DNA of 64,000 nucleotides. Source: Thiomonas intermedia. Lineage in GTDB: Bacteria; Pseudomonadota; Gammaproteobacteria; Burkholderiales; Burkholderiaceae_C. Position numbers and translations under genes: made by a program. The notes under the pieces were generated by a model. It had not been told where the DNA came from, searched no databases, and saw nothing but the letters and a program-made list of their open reading frames with translations. Where the stretch lies: contig NZ_CP020046.1 of assembly GCF_002028405.1 (NCBI RefSeq), positions 2,728,001 to 2,792,000 of the forward strand, given 5' to 3'. Below, piece after piece: positions 2,420-6,535 of the stretch (within the stretch, counting starts at the first letter, position 1; each line of letters starts with the position of its first letter).

Positions 2420-3469
2420 ATGCACATCCCCAACTTGAAAGACGCGGTGGACCCACAGGAATGGGCGCTGCGCTGCGATCTTGCAGCCTGTTATCGCCTG
2501 GTGGCCCTGCACGGGTGGAGCGATCTGGTATTCACCCACATCAGCGCCAAATTGCCGCTTTCGCTGACCGGCGGCGAGCATCAGTTCCTCATCAATCCCT
2601 ATGGCTTGATGTTCGACGAGATCACCGCGTCGAGTCTGGTGAAGGTGGACGCCGAGTGCAACAAGCTCAGCGAGAGCCCGTTTCCGGTCAATCCGGCGGG
2701 CTTCGTCATTCACAGCGCGGTGCACGAGGCGCGGCCAGATGCGGGCTGCGTGCTGCACACCCATACCCGCGCCGGTGTGGCGGTGAGCGCGCAGGAGCAG
2801 GGCGTGTTGCCCATGAGGGCCTGTTCACGCTATTTGTGCACCCGCGTTGCCCCCAGGCGGGGAGGGCTGCAAGGCGGAGGTGCGAGGCAAGGCTTTGTGC
2901 CTTGCCTCGCACGGACAACGCCGCAGAGGCCCCGCCTGGGGGCAACCCTCCGGGCCGGGGGGCTGGGCGGCGCACTGCCACGTTGCAGTCCACTTGTGGT
3001 GGAGACCACCACGGCGCGGCCTGCGCCTTGCATTGCCTCCGCCCAGCCCCCCGGCGCGGGTGCACAAATAGTGTGAACAGGCCCTACTCAGCAGAGCACC
3101 TTCGTGCTGGCATCGGTGGCGTATCACGACTATGAGGGCGTGGCGTTTCGCGCCGATGAGAAGCCGCGCTTGCAGGCCGATCTGGGCGATGCCAACTTTC
3201 TCATTCTGCGCAATCACGGACTGTTGACCGTGGGGGCCAGCATTGCCGATGCCTTTCTGGGCATGTACGTGCTGGAGAGCGCCTGTCAGATCCAGATTGC
3301 GGCGCTGTCGGGTCAGCCGGGCGCGGCGGGGCTGAGGCAGGTCCAGCCGCAGATTCTCAGCGGGGTGGCCGAGGCCATGCGGGTGCAGACCGGCGGGCTG
3401 GGCGGCGCCTTCGTCTGGCCTGCGCTATTGCGCAAGCTCGAACGCACCGATCCGGGCTATCGGGCCTGA
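2420..3469 (+). pseudogene. Class II aldolase/adducin family gene interrupted by a palindromic insertion
   Basis: The first 132 codons (2420-2815) and the last 127 (3086-3466) read in the same frame as one class II aldolase/adducin protein of about 259 residues, the normal family size. The 5' part has the substrate-loop region and the metal-binding His pair in CVLHTHTRAGVAV; the 3' part has the third metal ligand region in LILRNHGLLTVG. Between them sits a 270-bp inverted-repeat element whose length is a multiple of three but which brings an in-frame TGA at 3074-3076, so the product stops after 218 residues with a nonsense tail. Without the insertion the join would read ATG ACT CAG with no frameshift. 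The original substrate is unknown. Either the gene is dead or the 3' half is translated from an internal start such as GTG at 3104, which I think unlikely. Confidence 0.85.
2816..3085. mobile_element. 270-bp MITE-like palindromic element with four nested hairpins
   Basis: The ends are near-perfect inverted repeats of about 31 bp (2816-2846 against 3055-3085), with one mismatch near position 13. Inside are two long perfect stems. The first pairs 2846-2862 with 2930-2946 (17 bp) and encloses a 14-bp hairpin, 2880-2893 with 2899-2912, loop TTTGT. The second pairs 2954-2970 with 3039-3055 (17 bp) and encloses a 7-bp hairpin, 2996-3002 with 3006-3012. The whole element could fold as a cruciform. 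It has no coding capacity and no obvious target duplication, although the inverted repeats prove its limits well because they split a conserved gene. Non-autonomous, transposase-mobilised DNA is the simplest reading. Confidence 0.8.
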
Positions 3470-3529: not shown

Positions 3530-3584
3530 CCTTCTCCCCCTCCCCACAAGTGGGGAGGGTTGGGGTGGGGAGGACGCTGGGTGA
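3530..3584. repeat. GC-rich palindromic intergenic repeat, copy A
   Basis: The core contains TCCCCACAAGTGGGGA, a short hairpin flanked by C-rich and G-rich runs, and ends in GGACGCTGGGTG. Related copies occur at 12241-12395, one in inverted orientation, so this is a dispersed repeat and not chance. It lies between the aldolase pseudogene and the convergent panC, where it could act as a transcription stop for either, but there is no T-run. Confidence 0.6.
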
Positions 3585-5456: not shown

Positions 5457-6305
5457 TCAGCTCGGGGTGTAGGCCAGCCGCACATAGAGCGGCGCGAAGG
5501 CCTCGGCCTGGGTGAGGTCGACTAGGGCCTCGCGCGTGAGTTCGAGCAGCGCCACCAGCGTGACCACGGCAACGGGTACGCCCTGTGTCGGGTCGAACAG
5601 CTCGTGGAATTCGAGAAAGCGCCGGCCCTGCAGCTGACGCAGCACGCGGCTCATGTAGTCGCGCACCGACAGTTGCTCGCGGGTGATCTTGTGATGCGTA
5701 TGCAGCTTGGCGCGTTTGAGAATGTCGCTCCAGGCCTGTTGCAGCTCGGAGACGGCGACATCGGGCAGACGCGGCGCGGCGTCGCGGTCGAACAGCACCT
5801 GCGCCCGCCAGAAGTCCCGGCCGAGCACGGGCAGGGCATCGAGCTGCTGCGCGGCGAGCTTGAAACGCTCGTACTCCAGCAGGCGGCGCACGAGTTCGGC
5901 GCGCGGGTCTTCGGGCTCGGCGCCCGATTCGGTGGGCGGCCGCGGCAACAACATGCGCGACTTGATCTCGATGAGCATGGCCGCCATCAGCAGATACTCG
6001 GCGGCAAGCTCCAGGTTGTGACGGCGAATCTGCTCGACATAGCTCAGATACTGGGCCGTCACCTGGGCCAGCGGAATGTCGAGGATGTTGAAGTTCTGCT
6101 TGCGGATGAGGTAGAGCAGCAGATCCATCGGCCCTTCGAAGGCTTCGAGAAAGACCTCCAGCGCGTCGGGCGGGATGTAGAGATCCTGCGGCAGCTCAAA
6201 CAGCGGTTCGCCGTATAGCCGCGCGACCGCCATGCCGTCGACCGTGGCGGGCGTGCTGTCCACCGCGGGCGAAATCAGCTCGGACTCACGGGATGCGGGA
6301 AGCAT
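5457..6305 (-). CDS. scpA: Segregation and condensation protein A (ScpA)
   Basis: Kleisin subunit of the SMC-ScpAB complex that organises the chromosome. The N-terminal kleisin signature is clear: FEGPMDLLLYLIRKQNFNI followed by IPLAQVTAQYLSYVE, with EYLLMAAMLIEIKSRMLLP after it. The C-terminal winged-helix region ends near AFAPLYVRLAYT. At 282 residues it is of normal length, with a variable first 45 residues. The partner scpB is not adjacent here. It lies 32 bp after the DUF3460 gene and about 90 bp before panB on the same strand, an arrangement I know from Burkholderiales. Confidence 0.93.
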   Translation of the reverse strand: MLPASRESELISPAVDSTPATVDGMAVARLYGEPLFELPQDLYIPPDALEVFLEAFEGPMDLLLYLIRKQNFNILDIPLAQVTAQYLSYVEQIRRHNLELAAEYLLMAAMLIEIKSRMLLPRPPTESGAEPEDPRAELVRRLLEYERFKLAAQQLDALPVLGRDFWRAQVLFDRDAAPRLPDVAVSELQQAWSDILKRAKLHTHHKITREQLSVRDYMSRVLRQLQGRRFLEFHELFDPTQGVPVAVVTLVALLELTREALVDLTQAEAFAPLYVRLAYTPS

Positions 6306-6337
6306 GCGTCAGCGCGGCCCCATCTGGATGAGCGGCT

Positions 6338-6535
6338 TCAATGACTGCCGTAGACGTAGGCCTTCTGCGGCACGCGGCCCGCCTTGAAGGCCTTGGTCAG
6401 CTCCGTGTTCTGAGGCTTGTCCCAAAGCTGCGCGCGGCCCTCCTTCTGTTTGGCCTCGAGCTGCGGATCGCTGTGCTTGAGATCCTGGATGAAGTGGGTC
6501 ACTTCGGACACATACGGTTTGACTTTGAAGGGCAT
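6338..6535 (-). CDS. DUF3460 family small protein
   Basis: A 65-residue basic, soluble protein beginning MPFKVKPYVSEVTHFI and ending near KAYVYGSH. It matches my memory of the DUF3460 family, which is largely restricted to Burkholderiales and usually sits beside scpA and the pan genes, as here. Function is unknown. The ATG at 6535 is chosen because it gives the family's conserved N-terminus; the reading frame itself extends further upstream. No membrane segment, cysteine or signal peptide is visible. Confidence 0.8.
   Translation of the reverse strand: MPFKVKPYVSEVTHFIQDLKHSDPQLEAKQKEGRAQLWDKPQNTELTKAFKAGRVPQKAYVYGSH

Follow-up and report, generated by a model that had tools for sequence, protein, structure and literature searches.

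A folded MITE-type element interrupting a class II aldolase gene in Thiomonas, probably mobilized by IS5-family transposases

Bacterial MITEs are usually viewed as the decayed leftovers of insertion sequences (ISs). PMC10969869 delimits them by a size under ~500 bp, terminal inverted repeats (TIRs) and a target duplication, and describes them as typically, though not strictly required to be, AT-rich. The ISs relevant here resemble the IS427 group, which in Paracoccus comprises elements of 832-865 bp that mostly make 2-bp repeats and carry a frameshift motif in a pair of overlapping ORFs (PMC3281130). REP repeats are palindromes of 20-40 bp (PMC3733652). The element described here lies in a 64,000-nucleotide stretch of the Thiomonas intermedia genome, which is referred to as the window. 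On comparison of sequences, we read it as a non-autonomous MITE-type element on whose TIRs a DDE transposase of the two-ORF, IS5-family, IS427-like kind would act in trans, and we give this reading a probability of roughly 0.8.

The element sits inside a class II aldolase gene and consists of a closing outer stem, two hairpin arms and a mini-hairpin between the arms. It is oriented so that the arm with the motif pair GATGCAAGGCG / CAACGCCGCAG is the left one. The features of the locus, in window coordinates, are as follows.

2420-3076, + strand, left part of the disrupted class II aldolase gene (PF00596), which runs into the element and stops at the TGA at 3074-3076
2815-2816, no strand, left target duplication, GA here and TA in most copies
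2817-3084, + strand, mobile element of 268 bp, delimited by empty orthologous sites (net 270 bp, three genomes) and by the BLAST-delimited ends of genus copies
2817-2846, + strand, left arm of the outer stem, the first ~14-19 nt being the IS5-type terminal inverted repeat
2846-2946, + strand, left hairpin arm, with a 17-bp basal stem at 2846-2862 / 2930-2946
2866-2876, + strand, left-arm motif GCTGCAAGGCG
2880-2893 / 2899-2912, + strand, apical 14-bp hairpin of the left arm
2916-2929, + strand, left-arm motif CAACGCCGCAGAGG
2946-2954, + strand, mini-hairpin CCC-TCC-GGG joining both arms, with CCCNNNGGG in 91 of 96 pooled copies
2954-3055, + strand, right hairpin arm, an inverted and diverged copy of the left one, capped by a 7-bp hairpin at 2996-3002 / 3006-3012
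3055-3084, + strand, right arm of the outer stem (inverted copy), helix 1 of the alignment structure with 94.7% of cells paired
3085-3086, no strand, right target duplication, TA
3087-3469, + strand, remainder of the aldolase gene past the element

The palindromic anatomy set out in the original prediction, with ~31-bp TIRs, 17-bp stems and hairpins of 14 and 7 bp, is present, and its ends are here refined to 2817-3084. The TIR pair at 2816-2846 / 3055-3085 spans 31 nt and is 97% complementary. The left basal stem is a perfect 17 bp, and the right stem is a 21-nt pair at 95% that includes a perfect 17-bp run at 2954-2970 / 3039-3055, as read from the sequence. The right arm gives a 74% inverted self-match with the left arm. 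Folding of the element as DNA yields -130.2 kcal/mol (z -17.8) and as RNA -224.3 (z -16.8), and in neither case was any of 200 shuffles equally good. The G+C content is 71%, where the median over 96 copies is 67%. Among the ORFs listed, three that overlap the element have no Pfam match at E 0.1.

That 2817-3084 is an inserted element can be observed directly from relatives. When 13 genomes of the genus were searched, orthologs of the left gene part were found in three others. All three have an uninterrupted 259-aa frame, and in aligned coordinates each is a net 270 bp shorter. The 270 bp are absent from these orthologs; it had been allowed that they might instead prove to be a conserved part of the gene. 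The net 270 bp is the 268-bp element plus a 2-bp target duplication, with 2817-3084 as the best boundary. At the empty sites the sequence is AT(T/C)AG: the closest relative (G008) has TA there, and G005 and G007 have CA. The filled site reads CATGA-element-TACT. The left GA is best read as a mutated copy of the duplicated TA.

The element had also been described as exactly 90 codons long and as keeping the host gene in frame up to a TGA near its right end. The net 270 bp and the TGA stand, but the exact length looks like coincidence. All six frames of the element are stop-free until about the last six codons, bar one stop at codon 1 of a minus frame, and the length (plus 2) is divisible by three in 12 of 22 full-length same-genus copies. 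Because a GC-rich palindrome is nearly stop-free in six frames and 12 of the 22 copies have a length that keeps the frame, an open, in-frame length carries little meaning. An in-frame coding role was rejected on the internal TGA and on lengths unlinked to multiples of three. Rickettsia-type coding palindromes lie in frame within host genes and are translated. That identity was rejected on the same two grounds and also because open runs are shorter where the elements lie (83 elements, median 313 codons) than at random points (405 codons). Separately from the element, a perfect 10-bp hairpin, CCCTCCCCAC/GTGGGGAGGG, is found 3' of the aldolase gene at window positions 3538-3559. A stretch in another locus (L108), CCCTCCCCACAAGTGG, resembles it, and it may be another small repeat.

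The family to which the element belongs is MITE-type and multi-copy in the genus, and its architecture recurs in many other beta-proteobacteria. Multiple copies, empty sites in relatives and a target duplication together uphold the original prediction of a non-autonomous mobile family, and the many copies dispose of the possibility that no other exists anywhere. The host genome of the window (3.34 Mb, 2 contigs) gives 13 matches, several of which are self-matches of the palindrome; it holds two full-length or near full-length copies and several partial ones. Among 40 genomes searched, 16 have matches, namely 11 of the 13 of the genus (own included) and 5 others. In 25 fetched genus copies with both ends, TA stands on both sides in 16 and on one side in 9, and by a count made by eye the site is YTAR at 13 of the 16 with TA on both sides, the end of one copy (L077) having been shortened by two bases. 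REP/RAYT repeats are not known to make a target duplication, and identity with them was rejected for an element of 268 bp with target duplications.

A scan of 84,980 species with the pair of left-arm motifs returned at least 119 stretches. Among the matches listed are Thiobacillus, Sulfuritalea, Variovorax, Acidovorax, Xenophilus, Propionivibrio, Methylobacillus, Gallionellaceae and Sulfuricella. A stricter pattern was present in 10 of the 92 genera covered in the order (12 of 150 genomes), one genome having as many as 18 copies, and its reversed control gave none among the matches listed. The window's own copy, in which the second motif is changed, escapes these scan patterns; therefore, the pattern-based counts are lower bounds. 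A clean end palindrome could be placed in 78 of the 119 listed loci, and 60 of these measure 264-269 bp (58 of them 264-268 bp), by an end-finder that favored TA flanks, so that TA counts and lengths from it lean that way. The placement was repeated blind to the flanks, and that repetition is the basis of the end-class duplication counts given below. The remaining listed loci are cut by contig ends or have another architecture (including those in Planctomycetota and Myxococcales) and were not counted as members. One placed copy (L146), in a MAG labelled Omnitrophica, is a loose fit.

Several variants of the element were seen. Two longer members, of 334 bp (L197) and 318 bp (L192), have extra sequence inside otherwise normal ends. 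Armless palindromes of 41-57 bp with the element's ends also occur and look like deletion derivatives. Two armless palindromes of 41-44 bp with TA flanks (L251, G007:C1:438813-438860, and L105, G000:C1 about 1951380-1951423) occupy seemingly orthologous sites. In Thiomonas delicata (L121, about 5803-6497), two left-arm motif pairs lie 421 bp apart, as if two elements stood in tandem or one had inserted beside another. In the drafts G006 and G012, several contigs end within the element, many at one position; hence, the element is probably multi-copy there and breaks the assemblies. The whole element had no match among plasmids at 1e-5 and none in the phage collection searched, and an end-repeat query of plasmids found one element copy on a Variovorax replicon (L284).

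To compare copies, 72 placed loci of 255-285 bp were pooled with 26 earlier copies and identical ones were removed, which gave 96 copies; at least one physical copy is in this pool twice (L023, L115), and close copies from the same genus account for 22 of the 96. The structure alignment holds 36 of 47 de-replicated copies, with 11 left out, and has a mean column identity of 63%. RNAalifold assigns 90 pairs to it, 77 of them with two-sided changes. Cells changed on both sides number 850, against 255 after shuffling. Standard pairs make up 92.8% of the paired cells, against 64.9% shuffled and at most 42.9% in slid controls, and a covariation score of 0.682 compares with 0.175 after shuffling and no more than 0.132 in the slid controls; the scored structure came from the same alignment, which favors it over the slid controls, and the margin is large. 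The count of pairs with two-sided change (77 vs. 62.8 shuffled) is a less telling measure alone. None of 500 shuffles reached any of the four structure measures. These comparisons show that compensatory change keeps the fold while the sequences diverge. A multi-hairpin fold conserved across copies also agrees with the earlier view that the element is far more structured than a simple MITE.

Motifs are conserved along with the fold. The junction motif CCCNNNGGG occurs in 91 of the 96 copies, where 6.6 are expected from mononucleotide shuffling; in the right arm, CGTTGC occurs in 56 (2.0 expected) and GCGCCT in 63 (3.2 expected). None of the three played any part in retrieving the copies. With the spans widened slightly, the three are found in 43, 23 and 27 of the 47 de-replicated copies, respectively. 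The conservation of the left-arm motifs cannot be counted in the listed 119 loci, since those motifs were the search pattern. In four copies from other genera, retrieved by a whole-element BLAST, each of these motifs has at most one change.

Covariation together with conserved unpaired motifs resembles a structured RNA family. One may therefore suppose that the element is mainly a structured RNA, either regulatory or processed by RNase III, with its fold selected in transcripts and its mobility secondary. Small mobile repeats in other bacteria do work via RNA hairpins (PMC2229807). There are also two wobble pairs in the same orientation: a T.G pair in the left arm (columns 50/118) in 30 of 36 copies, where the G belongs to the search pattern, so that the T alone counts as independent, and a G.T pair in the right arm (columns 160/231) in 16 of 36. 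Apart from those two pairs, there is no clear wobble excess. G.T and A.C mismatches number 73 and 67 in the 36 copies, and a larger set gives 81 vs. 61 and 32 vs. 25; this near balance argues against selection on the RNA of one strand, by a test that is weak if both strands are transcribed. Furthermore, Rfam gave no family at the gathering threshold in the window except a tRNA, with two sub-threshold matches on the element. We consider a primarily RNA-level role unlikely.

The manner in which the arms change can be followed in the closest copies. L014 and L029, from one genome, have an identical ~206-bp core, and their outer stems are separated by three compensated double changes and one single. 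Over the three closest copy pairs, there are 8 compensated doubles and 2 singles, and the divergence per position is 0.107 in the arms and 0.015 in the core. Slow change of one side and then the other predicts an excess of singles between the closest copies; therefore, templated copying of one arm from the other, or exchange of the whole outer stem between copies, fits better. In more distant pairs, which are not independent of each other, the excess is smaller (doubles to singles of 28:15, 294:120 and 516:321), and in one close pair, L041/L071, all four changes are single (0 doubles). Stem mismatches are no more frequent where the duplication has decayed (40 vs. 19 copies, p 0.90). Most likely, one arm would be rewritten from the other via a hairpin or cruciform, by template switch or hairpin mismatch repair, such that the arms stay complementary.

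The 8:2 ratio and the several-fold faster change of the outer arms could also be carried further, to the position that the paired changes are purely mutational, hairpin-templated correction making the arms complementary and leaving a fold without function. The length is, however, nearly constant across genera (58 of the 78 listed placed copies at 264-268 bp), and the motifs that took no part in retrieval are conserved (91, 56 and 63 of the 96 copies, as above). Thus, a purely mutational origin of the fold is conceivable but doubtful. We favor instead that the inner fold and the conserved unpaired motifs would be maintained by selection acting on the DNA, in favor of the element's own spread.

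The link of the element to an IS is drawn from end similarity, a shared duplication and co-occurrence. The element TIR of ~14-19 bp begins GGGC(C/G)TGTT(A/C)AC next to the flanking TA. An IS transposase would bind its terminal ~15 bp, cut, and insert at TA (mostly YTAR) with a 2-bp duplication, and such an insertion would have split the aldolase gene here. Querying plasmids with the end repeat of a relative led to an 813-bp IS in Cupriavidus necator (L288) and to another, of similar length, in Paraburkholderia phymatum (L287). L288 begins GGGCGTGTTCACACTA, is flanked by TA on both sides, and has two overlapping ORFs with DUF4096 (PF13340) and DDE_Tnp_1 (PF01609). Against the NCBIfam IS5 family NF033580, its ORF2 scores 140.7 bits (cut-off 110) and its ORF1 104, just below. 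Within the genus, G002 has a complete 827-bp IS with TA flanks (L289) that scores 133.4 and 106.8 bits. The partner ISs, of 813 and 827 bp, both have the 2-bp TA duplication. The search for a transposase gene with the same ends, as had been proposed, thus arrived at IS5-type ISs.

Between the IS ends and five element ends, 11-14 of the first 14 positions agree (11-13 for the window's copy). The identity extends for up to 19 in a row, and the next 26 positions agree at 6-14, where chance gives about 6.5. When the local loci were searched for IS-length pairs of the window's ends, there were two: a pair spanning 831 bp with TA flanks, which is the IS of L289, and a pair spanning 694 bp, which is the double element of L121. 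In L289 (1146-2030, G002:C109), the IS directly abuts an element end, TA followed by GAGCCTGTTCACGC, and one TA is common to both.

ORF2 of L288 has matches at 81-82% identity in 4 of the 13 genus genomes (own, G002, G011 and G005). The relative in the window's own genome is an IS5-type IS of about 822 bp (G000:C1 about 1622053-1622874; L292 1130-1951). Both of its ORFs are open, with 81% aa identity in ORF2, its left end is degenerate and its right end imperfect. It is the likeliest local source of transposase. The co-occurrence of IS and element has gaps: G006, G008, G010 and G012 carry elements and have no IS match, G003 has IS fragments only, and G011 has an 826-bp IS and no element match, most of these genomes being incomplete drafts.

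The original prediction had instead proposed a hairpin-recognizing transposase, which would be of the HuH/Y1 type, IS200/IS605- or RAYT-like. The element's strong hairpins and conserved asymmetric internal loops would suit such a mover. HuH single-strand transposition is not known to make a target duplication. The element has target duplications and long TIRs, and there are IS5-type DDE elements whose ends match its own. Hairpin recognition is unnecessary for mobility, since IS5-family DDE ends and the same TA duplication explain the movement, and we now regard a mover of this type as extremely improbable. An IS630 (Tc1/mariner-like) transposase is nearly as improbable. It has the same TA/YTAR target habit, some IS630-type elements sit in CTAG, and there are four DDE_3 matches in the own genome. 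However, in 30 loci scanned, candidate ends were seen in 13, and none of those 13 was like GGGCsTGTT; in the other 17, the finder saw no ends.

The ends and duplications of the family fall into more than one class. With ends placed blind to the flanks, copies ended by GGGCsTG have TA/TA in 31 of 42 cases and an identical 3-mer in 1 of 42, whereas of the 21 copies ended by GA(G/A)C, 3 have TA/TA and 7 an identical TNA 3-mer (Fisher p 9e-6 for TA/TA and 0.0013 for the 3-mer). Of the five copies ended by GGGCTCG, one has TA/TA and two have TNA, and five other copies were unclassed. For copies with GAGCC ends the duplication tends to be a 3-bp TNA, and the IS5-type IS that they match is not the GGGCsTG partner. 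A Xanthomonas plasmid carries an 846-bp IS5-type element with GAGCCTGTTCAAAG ends and a TTA duplication, and its transposase also belongs to NF033580, very distant from that of L289. No IS partner was found in plasmids for the GGGCTCG or GAGCCTATTTCAG end classes.

On a quick unrooted tree built from 96 cores, 14 changes of end class are required, against 29.2 when shuffled, and well-supported branches by themselves force at least two changes for class A and at least three for class B. The class assignments are crude, and a number of the class B rows lie on long, unsure branches. The tree suggests that one folded core may use several IS5-type engines through partner changes. Exchange of the terminal repeats could let the same core be served by other IS5-type engines, such as those with GAGCC ends leaning to TNA. 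A more inclusive reading, which we put forward only tentatively, would make the element a modular hitchhiker. An old, selected DNA fold of ~266 bp, with a four-way-junction core and two arms with unpaired motifs, would act as a cis device in transposition or replication; it would swap its terminal repeats among IS5-type transposases (TA vs. TNA), and a hairpin-templated process would rewrite both ends together.

For this closed, two-arm, covarying family of near-constant length, a literature search, with most subscription journals outside its reach, found no published description. Across many genera most stem pairs have changed, and yet the interior retains its fold, fixed motifs at the junction and an almost unvarying length, so an origin as IS debris is hard to accept. 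Through its many natural copies, the family offers a testbed for selection on the shape of DNA (or RNA) in a non-coding transposon. It also bears on how palindrome arms stay matched and on whether such elements switch transposase partner.

By anatomy, with IS similarity confined to the TIRs, the element is a type II MITE, probably served by IS5/IS427-like elements. It measures 268 bp, with a ~30-bp outer stem, a TA duplication and no transposase gene, and autonomous ISs with the same ends exist (L288 and L289, 11-14 of 14 terminal positions). At 71% G+C it is unlike the typical AT-rich MITE. A MITE has been reported from Polaromonas (JS666), as cited in PMC10969869. The partner ISs are like the IS427 group in size, in the overlapping two-ORF layout and in the 2-bp duplication. 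The element itself has its ends and 2-bp duplication in common with the IS5/IS427 ISs. It is unlike them in having no recognizable transposase gene, and its likeness to the IS ends stops after about 19 bases.

Other small repeats are similar in part. According to PMC2229807, Correia/NEMIS, ERIC and RUP are likewise short non-autonomous repeats with TIRs, a terminal TA and strongly folded transcripts, and RUP is, like the element, thought to be served by an IS (IS630-Spn1). They are about 100-200 bp long and have no arms or linkers. The element is unlike them in its two arms, junction mini-hairpin, near-constant length, G+C richness, cross-genus covariation, and probable IS5-type partner in place of an IS630-type one. 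Caulobacter CIR, as described in PMC2229807, is like the element in having two long hairpin arms and a linker. CIR lacks a terminal inverted repeat and has not been proven mobile, whereas the element's structure is closed by an outer stem in which the TIR lies.
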